Source of the DNA: an uncultured Flavobacteriales bacterium
GTDB lineage: Bacteria > Bacteroidota > Bacteroidia > Flavobacteriales_F > PHOS-HE28
DNA: 36,275 nucleotides
Direction of reading: 5' to 3'
NCBI GenBank assembly: GCA_937873385.1
Contig: CALMYC010000323.1
Span: forward strand, 1-36,275
The first letter of the stretch is position 1. Each line of letters opens with the position of its first letter. Below are positions 5,277 through 21,547 of the stretch, piece after piece. The notes under the pieces are model-generated. The model worked only from the letters and a program-made list of their open reading frames with translations, was not told the origin of the DNA and did not search any database. The position numbers and the translations under genes were made by a program.

Positions 5277-6293
5277 GTGCCCAAGATCAAACGCCAGTAC
5301 TCCATCGCGCTCATGGCGCTGGGCGGCATCGCGCTGCTCATCTTCGGGCTCAACTACCTCAAGGGCCTCGACCTGCTTGCCGGCCGCAACACATACGTGG
5401 CGGTCTACGACGACATTTCCGGGGTGAACGACGCCACGCCCGTGCTCTTTCACGGCTACCATGTGGGGCAGGTGGTGAGCTCGGAAATGATGCCCAATGG
5501 TTCAGGGCGCATTGCCGTCACCTTCCAGATCAACGAACGCGGGCTGAAGCTCACCAAGGACACCCATGCGGACATTTTCAGCGCGGACCTCTTTTCCCGG
5601 GCCGTGCGCATCACCTTGGGGGCGGGGGTGCCTGCCGAGCGCGGTGACACCTTGATCGGCGGTGCCGAAATGAGCCTCACCGAATCAGTGGGTTCGCAGA
5701 TCGACCCCCTCAAGCGCAAGGCGGAGGCCATGATCGCAGGCGTCGATTCAGTGCTCACCGCCCTGCAAACGGTGCTCAACCCGAATGCCAGAAGGGACAT
5801 CGATGCCAGCTTCACCAACCTGCGCTCCACCCTGGAGAACATCAGCTCCACCACCGCCAAGCTCGATGGGCTGATCGCCAAGGAAAGCCTGCAGATCAGC
5901 AGCATTTTGGGGAACGTGGACCAAGTCACCGCCAACCTGGCCGCCAACAACGACCACCTTACCCACATCTTCGCCAACATGGACAGTGCCACGGCCGCAT
6001 TGGCCAATGGCCGGTTGGAACGCATGATGGCCGACATGGAGGCGACCTCCAAGGAACTCAAGGAGCTGATGGCCGGCCTGAAAAGGGGAGAAGGCACCCT
6101 GGGCAAATTGATGACCGACGACAGCCTCTATGTCAACCTGAACGCGGCCACGCACCAGATGGACCTGCTCATGGAGGACCTGCGCCTCAATCCGCACCGC
6201 TACCTCAGCATCTTCGGGCGCAAGGACAAACTTCCCAAGCTCAGCAACTCGGACATTGAGCGCATCCGCCAGGCCTACCCGCCCAAGCCATGA
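5277..6293 (+). CDS. MlaD/MCE family lipid-transport protein
   Basis: 338 residues. The likely start is GTG at 5277, 12 nt after the amidase stop. An N-terminal transmembrane anchor (residues 9-26, ALMALGGIALLIFGLNYL) is followed by one MCE domain (about 38-115: YVAVYDDISGVNDATPV, GYHVGQV, ITLGAG). A long helical C-terminal region has the amphipathic pattern seen in MlaD proteins that form a periplasmic needle or ring. MCE proteins carry phospholipids between the two membranes; the ABC permease and ATPase partners are not in this window. The stop overlaps the next ATG (ATGA at 6290), which suggests translational coupling to the Fe-S gene. Confidence 0.9.
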   Translation: MPKIKRQYSIALMALGGIALLIFGLNYLKGLDLLAGRNTYVAVYDDISGVNDATPVLFHGYHVGQVVSSEMMPNGSGRIAVTFQINERGLKLTKDTHADIFSADLFSRAVRITLGAGVPAERGDTLIGGAEMSLTESVGSQIDPLKRKAEAMIAGVDSVLTALQTVLNPNARRDIDASFTNLRSTLENISSTTAKLDGLIAKESLQISSILGNVDQVTANLAANNDHLTHIFANMDSATAALANGRLERMMADMEATSKELKELMAGLKRGEGTLGKLMTDDSLYVNLNAATHQMDLLMEDLRLNPHRYLSIFGRKDKLPKLSNSDIERIRQAYPPKP

Positions 6294-7615
6294 GCATCAG
6301 TTCCGTTATTTTCCTGCTGGCCTTCGCGATCGCCGTCTGGTGGTTCACACGCAATGTGGGGCGCATCCGCCGCAACATCCTGCTGGGCCGCGATGAGCAG
6401 ATCAACGACCGAAAGGGCGAGCGCTGGGCGCTGATGACGAAGGTGGCCCTGGGCCAGAGCAAGATGGTGGTAAAGCCCATTGCAGGGCTGCTGCACATCA
6501 TGGTGTACGCCGGCTTCGTCATCATCAACATCGAGGTGCTGGAGATCATCATCGACGGCCTCTTCGGCACCCACCGCGTGTTCAGCTTCCTCGGCGGCTT
6601 CTATGGCTTCCTCATCGGCAGCTTCGAGGTGTTGGCCCTGCTCACCTGGCTGGCCTGCGCCATCTTCCTCATCCGCCGCTTCGTGCTTCGCATCAAGCGT
6701 TTTTGGATGCGCGAGATGACCCTGTGGCCCCGCACCGATGCGGGCCTCATCCTCACCTTCGAGATCTTGCTGATGACCGCCTTCCTGCTGATGAATGCGG
6801 CGGACCACACCCTGCAACGCATGGGCGTAGGGCACTACTTGGAAGCCGGTTCCTTTCCGGTGAGCTCCGTGTTGGCGGGTTGGCTCGGCTTCGGGGACTT
6901 CGATGCCTCTACACTCATCGGCATCGAGCGCACCAGCTGGTGGTTCCACATCATCGGTATCCTTGCGTTCCTCAACTACCTGCCCTACAGCAAGCACTTC
7001 CACATCCTGCTGGCCTTCCCCAACGTATGGTACAGCAAGCTGAAGCCGAAGACGGAGATGAGCGCGATGCCCCGGATCACCGCCGAAGTCAGGAGCATGC
7101 TCGATCCCTCCCTTCCGCCCCCGGCACCTCCTGCGGAACCGGCGAACGGCATGCCTCCCGAGCACTTCGGAGCGAAGGATGTGTTCGACCTGACGTGGAA
7201 GAGCCTCATGGACGCATACACCTGCACCGAGTGCGGGCGTTGCACCAGCGTGTGCCCGGCCAACCTCACGGGCAAGCTGCTCAGTCCGCGCAAGATCATC
7301 ATGGACACCCGCGACCGCTTGGAGGAAGTGGGAAAAGTGATTGATGTGAAAGGCAAGTGGGAGGACGACGGCAAGGACCTCTTCAGCCGCATCAGCGAGG
7401 AGGAGCTGTGGGCTTGCACCACCTGCAACGCTTGCACGCAAGCCTGTCCGGTGAACATCGACCCCGTGGAGATCATCACCGGCATGCGCCGCTTCCTGGT
7501 GATGGAGCAGAGCAAACCCAGCCCTTCCTTGAACGCCATGTTCACCACCATTGAGAACAATGGGGCGGCGTGGGCTTTCGGGCCGGACAAGCGGATGGAT
7601 TGGGTGAAGGAATGA
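6290..7615 (+). CDS. Membrane (Fe-S)-binding protein, HdrD/NarI-like N-terminal half
   Basis: 441 residues. About five transmembrane helices occupy residues 2-235, with His residues placed as possible haem ligands (for example His69, and the WWFHIIG and KHFHIL segments), similar to the nitrate reductase gamma or HdrE type. The C-terminal soluble part carries two 4Fe-4S motifs: CTECGRCTSVCP from about residue 312 and CTTCNACTQACP from about residue 376. It probably passes electrons between a quinone pool and a soluble partner. The natural partner is the CCG-domain protein at 8309; the two are normally neighbours but here a four-helix-bundle gene sits between. It overlaps the MCE gene by 4 nt. 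The substrate cannot be told from the sequence. Confidence 0.87.
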   Translation: MSISSVIFLLAFAIAVWWFTRNVGRIRRNILLGRDEQINDRKGERWALMTKVALGQSKMVVKPIAGLLHIMVYAGFVIINIEVLEIIIDGLFGTHRVFSFLGGFYGFLIGSFEVLALLTWLACAIFLIRRFVLRIKRFWMREMTLWPRTDAGLILTFEILLMTAFLLMNAADHTLQRMGVGHYLEAGSFPVSSVLAGWLGFGDFDASTLIGIERTSWWFHIIGILAFLNYLPYSKHFHILLAFPNVWYSKLKPKTEMSAMPRITAEVRSMLDPSLPPPAPPAEPANGMPPEHFGAKDVFDLTWKSLMDAYTCTECGRCTSVCPANLTGKLLSPRKIIMDTRDRLEEVGKVIDVKGKWEDDGKDLFSRISEEELWACTTCNACTQACPVNIDPVEIITGMRRFLVMEQSKPSPSLNAMFTTIENNGAAWAFGPDKRMDWVKE

Positions 7616-7626
7616 GGGGGGGGATC

Positions 7627-7727
7627 GTAGGTTGTAGTTCGTAGTTGTTAGGAAGAACAAGCGCGAGGACAATAAGCATCACATCCCACAGGGAGTTCGC
7701 AGATGTTAGTTCGTAGTTGTTAGGGAG
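7627..7727. repeat. Left inverted copy of the ACGAACTACG repeat
   Basis: Two stretches (7627-7651 and 7696-7727) contain GTAGTTCGTAGTTGTTAGG-like sequence, the reverse complement of the units found to the right of the four-helix-bundle gene at 8219-8300. They lie directly upstream of that gene. Confidence 0.75.
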
Positions 7728-7738
7728 ATCGGGGAAAC

Positions 7739-8212
7739 ATGGTAGGTGGGAAGCAACAAGATGGCCTTCGGACGTTCACGGAGCTGAAGGCTTGGCAGAA
7801 GGCAAGGGCCCTGCGCAAGGCGATATCCACTTTGGCCAAGGCATTTCCGGCGGAAGAGAAGTTCCGGCTCGCAGATCAGATCATCCGTTCCAGCCGTGGC
7901 CCAAGCGCCAACATTGCCGAAGGCTACGGACGATTCCATGAAAAGGACAATGCACATTTTTGCCGCATGGCAAGTGGATCATTGAATGAAACAATGGACC
8001 ATCTGACCGTGGCATACGATGAGCGCTACATCTCTGCTGAAGTTTTTAAGGAACACTGGGGCTTGGCAGAGGAGACCCTGCGTTTACTGCATGGGTATAT
8101 CCGCTATTTGCGGATGCCTGATCGATCCAGTAGTTCCGTATCCGACCCTGCAGAGCAATATGGAACAGGAGCCGAGGGGGATATCTTCACAGATCCTCCA
8201 TCCGATTTGTGA
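7739..8212 (+). CDS. Four-helix bundle protein (23S rRNA intervening-sequence protein family)
   Basis: 157 residues. The motifs ELKAWQKARALRKAI, ADQIIRSSRGPSANIAEGYGR and LNETMDHLTVA are diagnostic of the four-helix-bundle family first known from 23S rRNA intervening sequences and related to the Avd accessory protein of diversity-generating retroelements. No reverse transcriptase or rRNA is nearby. Biochemical role is unknown; related proteins are basic and may bind nucleic acid. The last 30 residues (Ser/Asp-rich) are longer than usual. The gene separates the two Fe-S subunits and is bracketed by inverted low-complexity repeats, which suggests it arrived as a discrete insertion. Confidence 0.85.
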   Translation: MVGGKQQDGLRTFTELKAWQKARALRKAISTLAKAFPAEEKFRLADQIIRSSRGPSANIAEGYGRFHEKDNAHFCRMASGSLNETMDHLTVAYDERYISAEVFKEHWGLAEETLRLLHGYIRYLRMPDRSSSSVSDPAEQYGTGAEGDIFTDPPSDL

Positions 8213-8218
8213 ACCGTG

Positions 8219-8300
8219 CCTACGAACTACGAACTACGACCACGCCCTACGCCCTACGCCCTACTAAGAACGAACCACGCCCTACGAACCCCGAACCACC
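8219..8300. repeat. Right copy of the ACGAACTACG / ACGCCCTACG repeat
   Basis: Tandem degenerate units (ACGAACTACGAACTACG, then CACGCCCTACGCCCTACG and ACGAACC variants) fill the gap between the four-helix-bundle stop and the ATG at 8309. They lie in inverted orientation to 7627-7727 and resemble 1425-1474. Confidence 0.8.
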
Positions 8301-8308
8301 GAACAAGG

Positions 8309-9100
8309 ATGAGCGAAGCACTGAAAGTCCCCACCATGGCCGAGTTCGCCGCAACAGGTGAAGTCCCGGAAGTCCTCTTCTGGGTCGGCTGCATGGGCTC
8401 CTTCGACGATCGGGCGCGCAAGATCACCAAAGCGTTCGTGCGCATCCTGAACAAGGCCAACGTGAAGTTTGCGGTGCTGGGGCAGGAGGAAAGCTGTACC
8501 GGCGATCCGGCGCGGCGCGCAGGCAATGAGTTCCTCTTCCAGATGCAGGCGTTGCAGAACATCACCGTGCTGAACGGCTATGGCGTGCAGCGGATCGTGT
8601 CGGCGTGCCCGCACTGCTTCAATACCCTCAAGAACGAATACCCCGCGCTGGGCGGCCAGTACGAGGTGATGCACCACACCCAGTTCATCAACGCGCTGAT
8701 CAAGGAAGGGCGCATCAAGGTGGAAGGCGGGTCATTCCAGGGCAAGCGCATCACCTTCCACGATCCCTGTTACCTCGGCCGTGGCAATGGCGATTACGAG
8801 GCCCCGCGCGAGGTGCTGCTGAAATTGGATGCCGCGCTGGTGGAGATGAAGCGCAGCAAGGAGAAGGGCCTCTGCTGCGGCGCCGGCGGCGCACAGATGT
8901 GGAAGGAGGCCGAGAAGGGCGACAAGGAAGTGAACGTGGAACGCACCGAGGAGGCCGTGGGCACGGGCGCCAAGATCATTGCGGCAGGCTGCCCCTTCTG
9001 CAACACCATGCTCACCGATGGCGTGAAGGCCGTGGGAAGCGAAGGCCAGGTGGTGGTGAAGGATATTGCCGAACTGATCGCGGAGGCGGGGGAATTGTGA
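8309..9100 (+). CDS. (Fe-S)-binding protein with two CCG domains (HdrB/GlpC-like)
   Basis: 263 residues from ATG 8309. The frame is open back to 8216, but that extension is only translated repeat. Two cysteine-rich CCG modules are visible: the first with VGCMGSFDD, ESCTGDPARR and SACPHCFNTL, the second with HDPCYLGR, LCCGAGG and AGCPFCNTML. In heterodisulfide reductase B/D and in glycolate or lactate oxidase subunits such modules hold non-cubane Fe-S clusters that handle thiol or disulfide chemistry. It probably works with the membrane Fe-S protein at 6290 as a two-part redox complex of unknown substrate. It is the last plus-strand gene of the cluster. The 78-nt gap to the convergent YjbR-like gene shows no clean terminator. 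Confidence 0.88.
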   Translation: MSEALKVPTMAEFAATGEVPEVLFWVGCMGSFDDRARKITKAFVRILNKANVKFAVLGQEESCTGDPARRAGNEFLFQMQALQNITVLNGYGVQRIVSACPHCFNTLKNEYPALGGQYEVMHHTQFINALIKEGRIKVEGGSFQGKRITFHDPCYLGRGNGDYEAPREVLLKLDAALVEMKRSKEKGLCCGAGGAQMWKEAEKGDKEVNVERTEEAVGTGAKIIAAGCPFCNTMLTDGVKAVGSEGQVVVKDIAELIAEAGEL

Positions 9101-20624: not shown

Positions 20625-20658
20625 TAGTCGAACATCCAGATGAAGTAGATGACAATCT

Positions 20659-20707
20659 CGCCCGCGTTTGCAACGCGGGCGTCCAATACAGGTCGTTTGC
20701 GACGACC
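20659..20707. repeat. REP hairpin pair (copy A)
   Basis: CGCCCGCG-TTTGCAA-CGCGGGCG (20659-20681), an 8-bp stem, is followed by GGTCGT-TTGCG-ACGACC (20691-20707), a 6-bp stem. The same pair recurs at 20945-20993. Confidence 0.88.
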
Positions 20708-20709
20708 AT

Positions 20710-20937
20710 TCACCAATTCATATCAATGTTCACCAGCCCTTTCATCCCTGCATAGCTCCCGGCTGAGCTCAACAAATAGTGTTCAGGCTCGGCCACCAGC
20801 CCTGCTGCCACCGGGTTCATGTGGAGGTAGTTGAAGCGTTGCTCCCATTTTGCCGGTGTATCCAGCAGGACAGCGTAATTGCCGTCTTCCCAGAACTTGA
20901 ATTCGGAAACGCGCTTGATCTGTGAAGCGCGGTAGGC
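20710..20937 (-). pseudogene. 3' fragment of the REP-associated transposase gene
   Basis: The last 75 codons of the gene at 20996-21547, in frame to its TGA, without the HxH half. It retains the NYLHMNPV motif with the candidate catalytic Tyr. One visible change is GNYAV for GNHAV. Created by the tandem duplication; not functional as a nuclease. Confidence 0.85.
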
Positions 20938-20944
20938 ACAGTCT

Positions 20945-20993
20945 CGCCCGCGTTTGCAACGCGGGCGTCCAATACAGGTCGTTTGCGACGACC
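20945..20993. repeat. REP hairpin pair (copy B), next to the transposase stop
   Basis: An exact second copy of the two hairpins (20945-20967 and 20977-20993), ending just past the transposase stop codon (20996-20998). Confidence 0.88.
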
Positions 20994-20995
20994 AT

Positions 20996-21547
20996 TCACC
21001 AATTCATATCAATGTTCACCAGCCCTTTCATCCCTGCATAGCTCCCGGCTGAGCTCAACAAATAGTGTTCAGGCTCGGCCACCAGCCCTGCTGCCACCGG
21101 GTTCATGTGGAGGTAGTTGAAGCGTTGCTCCCATTTTGCCGGTGTATCCAGCAGGACTGCATGATTCCCGTCTTCCCAGAACTTGAATTCGGAAACGCGC
21201 TTGATCTGTGAAGCGCGGTAGGCGAATTGCCGAAGCATCCAATCCCTTCGGCTTTCCGGTTCGTCCTGGATCTGCTGTACGATGGCTTTGGACGTGAATT
21301 TCTTGAGGTCACGCAGAATGGCGCTGATGTCATGCGCCGGCGCTGCGCGTGCGATCAGGTGGGCATGGTTGCTCATGATCACCCACGCATACAGGATCAA
21401 GCCTTTGTTGGAAATGCAGTAGTTGAGCGAATCACAGAGTGTATAGGCATGTTCCTTGTGCGTAAACACATCGATCCAATCCACAACAGTGAGGGTGAGG
21501 AAATAGGTCCCTTCCTTATCTGCAAGGCTGTACCGGTCACTGGACAT
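20996..21547 (-). CDS. REP-associated tyrosine transposase (RAYT, Y1/IS200-like)
   Basis: 183 residues. A single-strand DNA nuclease of the HUH-Y1 type: the HUH motif is His61-Ala-His63 (MSNHAHLI) and the candidate nucleophile is Tyr145 in NYLHMNPVAAGLV, aligned with the DYIYINPV tyrosine of E. coli TnpA-REP. FWEDGNHAV is also typical. RAYTs recognise and cut REP hairpins; here inverted copies of one hairpin lie downstream (20945-20967) and upstream (21606-21628) of the gene, so gene and substrate are present together. TAGTTTCG ends 4 nt before the ATG. A tandem duplication has copied its 3' end. Confidence 0.9.
   Translation of the reverse strand: MSSDRYSLADKEGTYFLTLTVVDWIDVFTHKEHAYTLCDSLNYCISNKGLILYAWVIMSNHAHLIARAAPAHDISAILRDLKKFTSKAIVQQIQDEPESRRDWMLRQFAYRASQIKRVSEFKFWEDGNHAVLLDTPAKWEQRFNYLHMNPVAAGLVAEPEHYLLSSAGSYAGMKGLVNIDMNW

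Follow-up and report, generated by a model that had tools for sequence, protein, structure and literature searches.

A four-helix-bundle gene between inverted 7-nt arrays probably belongs to a widespread class of bacterial hairpin elements

The window analyzed here, a 36,275-nucleotide stretch of DNA from an uncultured Flavobacteriales bacterium, carries a gene for a four-helix-bundle (4HB) protein that lies between inverted tandem arrays of 7-nt units and splits a pair of Fe-S genes (Table 1). We consider it probable that positions 7625–8304 hold a member of a widespread class of small hairpin elements, in which a 4HB gene is set between inverted short tandem arrays, nearly always of 7-nt units with a locus-specific word, and of which the intervening sequences (IVSs) of rRNA genes are the copies that reside in rRNA. 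Comparison across loci shows that, in several phyla, most 4HB genes have inverted arms of period 7, and that one and the same site can be filled, hold a solo hairpin, or be gene-free. It further shows that related 4HB proteins at different operon sites can be accompanied by a single heptamer, that arms match one another better within a locus than between orthologues, and that the dN/dS of the gene is low.

Table 1. Features of the 4HB unit and the two host genes that it separates in the window
Feature	Positions	Strand	Content or basis
Upstream host gene, membrane protein with two 4Fe-4S clusters (HdrC/GlpC/SdhB-like)	6290..7615	+	Pfam Fer4 families; NCBIfam matches weak
Left arm, first block	7625..7652	+	~4 degenerate 7-nt units: TCGTAGG TTGTAGT TCGTAGT TGTTAGG
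Left arm, second block (AGTTCGCAGATGTTAGTTCGTAGTTGTTAGG)	7694..7724	+	GTAGTTC-like 7-mers
4HB gene, 157 aa, PF05635 23S_rRNA_IVP / TIGR02436	7739..8212	+	Profile matches
Right arm, ~12 degenerate 7-nt units (CTACGAA, CTACGCC, CCACGCC...)	8219..8304	+	Inverse of left arm
Downstream host gene, CCG cysteine-rich domain protein (PF02754; TfrB/GlpC C-terminal-like)	8309..9100	+	Pfam, NCBIfam

A first-pass annotation, made from the sequence alone, had described a 4HB gene between inverted repeats that separates two Fe-S genes, and this observation was confirmed. The encoded protein scores 101.7 bits against PF05635 (curated cut-off 33.8) and 99 bits against TIGR02436 (cut-off 24), making it a member of both families. 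Its fold is of the S23/Avd type, which forms oligomers and binds nucleic acids. Orthologues at the same Fe-S site in relatives are 54–76% identical to it, and XCC0516 (PDB 2gsc) is the only solved structure detectable for it by sequence. In the left arm, copies of the repeat are found at ~7634–7652 (GTAGTTCGTAGTTGTTAGG) and 7707–7724 (TAGTTCGTAGTTGTTAGG); the right arm begins with CCTACGAACTACGAACTACG at 8219–8238 and continues in degenerate CTACGCC/CCACGAA units to ~8304. Both arms have a period of 7, with the words GTAGTTC on the left and CTACGAA on the right, and they pair as inverted repeats in two stretches, one of 23 nt (87%) and one of 28 nt (82%). Allowing up to 3 mismatches, CTACGAACTACGAACTACG occurs three times in the window, always at the 4HB unit, and never in 100 shuffles; its presence there is therefore no chance event. 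The predicted RNA fold of the unit closes on the arms (z = -3.6).

Beyond the window, the first-pass annotation had expected other 4HB genes of the same genome to carry the same repeats. They do not: the genome has four PF05635 genes, the window copy included, and the other three lack CTACGAA. A copy between sdhA- and sdhB-like genes is instead flanked by inverted GGTGATT arrays, another by inverted AGTCTTC/AGTCTGG arrays, and the third, which follows an hsdS-like gene, by inverted GCACAAT/GCACAGG arrays. All four 4HB genes thus sit inside inverted 7-nt arrays with four different words. A repeat sequence common to all 4HB genes is thereby rejected and, as each gene has its own heptamer, what they have in common is period and symmetry. 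CTACGAA arrays also occur at 13 other contig sites that hold no 4HB gene, many of them short-loop hairpins at gene ends. The annotation had stated that repeats equally common at gene ends without the gene, combined with 4HB genes elsewhere lacking them, would count against its reading; taken literally this is what the genome contains, yet all three of those genes have inverted heptamers of their own. What survives of its interpretation is a unit bounded by inverted repeats and a link to rRNA, while the idea of one repeat sequence for all 4HB genes falls. In the window itself, a one-armed ACGCCCC/AACTACG-type heptamer array is present at a gene end (1438–1474), with no 4HB gene. By eye, a solo CTACGAA-type hairpin of this genome (L022) occupies the same site as a 4HB gene with GGGCAGT arms in the relative G018 (L087).

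We surveyed 45 genomes of the genus, extracting both 300-nt flanks of the 90 4HB genes that were usable and calling a flank periodic when a 35-nt window held at least 20 matches at a given lag. Lag 7 was found upstream of 63% and downstream of 56% of these genes, as against 3–10% for lags 4–6, 8, 10, 11, and 13 and 12–20% for lag 9; lag 14 was also high, as a multiple of 7. Counting either flank, lag 7 was present at 66/90 4HB genes, 0/29 ParE genes, which served as a negative control, and 1/28 GxxExxY genes (Fisher p = 1.8e-13 for 4HB versus ParE), counts that are not independent because the loci are related. Inverted similarity between the two flanks exceeded the 99% point of shuffles at 67/90 4HB, 0/29 ParE, and 25/28 GxxExxY genes; this shuffle null supplemented a mismatched-partner null, which is conservative because loci have heptamers in common. 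About a quarter of the 4HB loci in the genus have no clear period-7 flank. Arms with a period of 6, 8, or 9 were seen in a minority of 4HB genes (L342, L338, L345, L043, and L093). Heptamer hairpins are not found everywhere, as a 795-kb sample of the complete relative G002 has only about 12 period-7 arrays, roughly half of them at its 4HB genes.

The 4HB gene itself had been proposed as possible cargo of a small non-autonomous element, but it is apparently conserved. Median dN/dS, calculated site by site, ranges from 0.02 to 0.24, values that are only approximate because dS is near saturation. At the sites where it resides, the gene thus appears to be under purifying selection and no mere cargo in decay, and it may serve either the element or the host. 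Copies with a broken frame do exist (L389 and L398). By a crude ORF-based judgement, the 4HB gene lies on the strand of both neighbors in 45/93 cases and ParE in 15/30, so we rejected a strong sense-orientation bias of 4HB genes in operons, and sense transcription of the gene is not generally required.

The junction between the two Fe-S genes records a history of long residence and frequent loss. The downstream CCG-domain gene was found in 40/45 relatives. The first-pass annotation held that the two genes normally adjoin and proposed looking for relatives whose site lacks the unit. Such relatives exist: in G044, G019, and G011 the genes overlap or abut at TGATG/ATGA at the sequence level, and in G015 the computed gap is 4 nt. 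Normal adjacency is too strong a term, however, as in many other relatives the genes are 38–172 nt apart. Among 32 relatives compared at this site, the 4HB gene is present in 9 and missing from 23; a two-armed hairpin without the gene is present in G017, G024, and G004, and G025, G023, and G010 have arrays in which a single arm is clear. Apart from those with overlapping or abutting genes, the other relatives have other short palindromes or another small ORF. In the host-gene tree G017 is nested among 4HB-bearing genomes, and its solo hairpin is thus most simply explained by gene loss. The 4HB proteins of the Fe-S site form one clade (9 tips, support 0.97), plus one locus at a contig end. The gene has been inherited there as one clade, so any movement is rare. 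Collectively, these patterns suggest long residence of the 4HB gene with frequent loss, and possibly repeated gain. The heptamer at this site varies by species (GTAGTTC, AACTAAC, GACAACT). Filled and gene-free sites are too divergent for exact alignment, and the ATG and TGA that the host genes require mimic a target duplication. The same junction also holds short GTCGACCC palindromes in eight loci (L187, L189, L190, L192, L195, L202, L204, and L210) and gives the appearance of a hotspot for palindromic repeats of several kinds. Another small ORF, with the motif LIDIDGTICED or similar, is found in this junction with or without the 4HB gene (L208, L209, L203, and L055).

Evidence for movement comes from related 4HB genes at different sites. 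4HB proteins 65–78% identical to one another, with one TGAGATT-type heptamer, occupy four sites in Sphingobacteriaceae and a relative: between sdhA and sdhB, between 3-hydroxyacyl-CoA dehydrogenase and thiolase genes, between thiolase and acyl-CoA dehydrogenase genes, and upstream of an aspartokinase-like gene. Across pairs of loci at different sites, arm similarity correlates with protein identity (Mantel r = 0.20, p <= 0.002), a correlation possibly inflated by residual undetected same-site pairs, and it climbs with protein identity only above ~40–50%. This trend and the single heptamer at four sites may reflect co-movement of gene and arms or a protein that recognizes its heptamer; the data fit both. 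Within a locus, the arms match each other better than they match those of orthologues (43/61 above the cross-orthologue median, p = 9e-4; 8/8 at the Fe-S site), indicating that the two arms change in concert.

Period-7 arms extend well beyond the genus. A scan of public genomes, built from three close 4HB sequences, yielded 80 named loci, mostly from Bacteroidota and also from Ignavibacteria, Geobacter, Vreelandella, Nitrospirae, and Atribacteria. Lag 7 was present in 62/74 usable loci of this set (L213–L290); the shuffle test was weaker there, with 30/74 above its inflated threshold. In six non-Bacteroidota genomes searched whole, most 4HB genes are flanked by arms, sometimes of period 6, 8, or 9, and a gammaproteobacterial sample had lag 7 in 27/29 loci and inverted flanks in 26/29. 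One gammaproteobacterial 4HB copy (L389) lies within a 23S rRNA gene that matches the Rfam LSU model end to end; its arms are TCTTCTG heptamers, its frame is broken, and we read its insertion point as the helix-45 region of 23S rRNA. Rfam searches of 20 gammaproteobacterial loci returned tRNAs only, the 23S copy being L389. In Coxiella, the IVS carries GACAGAT heptamers at the RNase III cut site (PMC4990558). Given the arms of L389 and of Coxiella, rRNA IVSs are built like the window unit, bearing out the link to 23S rRNA insertions made in the first-pass annotation, and the known IVSs appear to be a special case of a broader class. By eye, the 4HB sites L224 and L215 resemble L035 in how the upstream gene ends and the downstream gene starts, a likeness across Ignavibacteriae and Bacteroidota suggesting that the same insertion site recurs between phyla.

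A further line of evidence came from a heptamer already described. Xanthomonas genomes hold many GGGAATC arrays, with ~70 convergent inverted pairs per genome (PMC4692102). When gammaproteobacterial genomes were searched for this word, one had GGGAATC hairpins and, as predicted, GGGAATC arms enclose the only 4HB gene it has, a frame-broken copy placed between an accB-like and an accC-like gene; at least one other GGGAATC copy in that genome is a solo hairpin. Neither 4HB nor S23 genes turned up in a word search of two heptamer-repeat papers (PMC4692102 and PMC4679880), and in the open-access literature we found no paper tying 4HB genes to intergenic heptamer hairpins.

Several known systems resemble the unit in part. 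Among them are the 23S and 16S rRNA IVSs with an S23p/IVP ORF known from Coxiella, Leptospira, and CPR bacteria (PMC4990558, PMC11270868). Like the window unit, these place a PF05635 ORF inside long inverted repeats, with tandem GACAGAT in the Coxiella stem, and the terminal inverted repeats of the window unit likewise give a long stem around it in the predicted fold. In contrast, the window unit lies between two protein genes, as do nearly all copies described here, and its arm sequence is locus-specific. Published intergenic heptamers (GGGAATC in Xanthomonas and GGGGA(T/C)T in Nostoc, PMC4692102; TAACTGA in Beggiatoaceae, PMC4679880) are also 7-nt tandem arrays between genes, with inverted pairs in Xanthomonas; the difference is that here GGGAATC forms the arms of one genome's only 4HB gene. 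REP/RAYT systems similarly combine many intergenic palindromes per genome with one related gene that has the same flanking palindrome, but 4HB units have no Y1 transposase, their 4HB protein has no known catalytic residues, and their arms are tandem 7-mers with no conserved sequence. The RAYT-like Y1 gene of the window (20996–21547) is flanked by other palindromes (GCCCGCGTTTGCAACGCGGGC), and membership in REP/RAYT or a link to this gene was rejected. Part of that gene, with its GCCCGCGTTTGCAACGCGGGC palindromes, is covered by a 286-bp near-perfect tandem duplication (20652–21223). An inverted-repeat transposon or MITE whose copies have terminal repeats in common was rejected as well, the four copies having four heptamers. 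Avd, a protein of diversity-generating retroelements, has a related four-helix-bundle fold. No reverse transcriptase was found at the window 4HB locus, and the only match to one in the genome is on another contig (C67), so the unit was not assigned to these retroelements.

If the unit is indeed a hairpin element, it would occasionally move whole to gene junctions. Its arms would form a long stem in transcripts that RNase III may cut, as published for rRNA IVSs, which are excised with no rejoining of the transcript (PMC4990558), and such cutting could make insertion inside an operon tolerable. The 4HB protein may act on the heptamer hairpin, slippage together with copying of one arm from the other would keep the arms matched, and loss of the gene would leave solo hairpins. 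Reverse transcriptases, a conceivable mover of the unit, are present in 6/45 genomes of the genus and absent from 39/45; a resident one is therefore unlikely to be required, and maintenance driven by reverse transcription was rejected. Counted against the element are this scarcity of reverse transcriptases, the 4HB loci with no clear period-7 flank or with another period, the inheritance of the gene as a single clade at the Fe-S site, the weak orientation bias, and the lack of a transposase and of a proven target duplication.

The same observations could be read in other ways. A resident regulatory module, in which heptamer hairpin and 4HB protein regulate the host operon through mRNA stability or differential subunit expression and rarely or never move, would account for the repeated position between partner genes of metabolic operons (sdhA and sdhB, the Fe-S pair, fad genes, accB and accC, and hydantoinase-like and preT-like genes), for the apparent purifying selection, and for long residence at a site. 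We nevertheless hold it to be unlikely, as 23/32 relatives lack the gene at the Fe-S site, the heptamer changes freely between close relatives, and the host operons share little. Less likely again is the remnant of an ordinary DNA transposon with terminal inverted repeats, moved in trans by a resident transposase such as Y1/RAYT with the 4HB gene as passenger. Inverted arms, solo copies, and movement between sites would all be expected of it, and the window does contain a Y1 gene, but that gene has its own, different palindromes rather than heptamers, the arms of different copies have only their period in common, and a passenger gene should decay whereas the 4HB gene appears conserved.

Finally, low-complexity expansion might give rise to intergenic 7-nt hairpins independently at any place, with 4HB genes landing or surviving there by chance. 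Gene-free heptamer hairpins are indeed common, as at the 13 CTACGAA sites and in about half of the G002 arrays. Yet the scarcity of arrays in the G002 sample, set against the flanking of most 4HB genes, the absence of lag 7 at ParE genes of the same genomes, and the different period (9) of GxxExxY inverted arms make this reading highly improbable.

The GxxExxY genes offer a comparison in their own right. In the same genus, these genes (PF13366, L121–L150) have inverted flanking arrays with a period of ~9 (CACAGAGGC, CAGATGACG, and GCCAAGACG); a period near 9 was present at 12/28 GxxExxY and 3/29 ParE genes (p = 0.007). At a site between hydantoinase-like and dihydropyrimidine-dehydrogenase-like genes, names taken from reading the translated gene ends, a 4HB gene with heptamer arms is found in G007, G004, and G025 (L035, L039, and L042). 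In G030 and G041 (L129 and L131) this site has a GxxExxY gene with other arms. A bolder and tentative possibility, which we do not favor outright, is that the protein sets the period: 4HB proteins would bind 7-nt hairpins and take part in writing or keeping them, and GxxExxY, a PD-(D/E)XK protein, would do so for ~9-nt ones, with protein and word co-evolving in a self-propagating family whose rRNA members are the known IVSs. If true, such a family of repeat hairpins would account for the so far unexplained surplus of heptamer repeats in bacterial genomes, and the contrast between period 7 and period ~9 gives a sharp handle on mechanism.

More generally, the hairpin-element reading joins three loose ends: the function of the 4HB/S23 protein, the origin of rRNA IVSs, and the unexplained over-representation of heptamer repeats in bacteria. 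If it is right, an overlooked class of elements resides in many genomes, often within operons of central metabolism, and what the 4HB protein does would become directly testable through its binding to its own heptamer hairpin.
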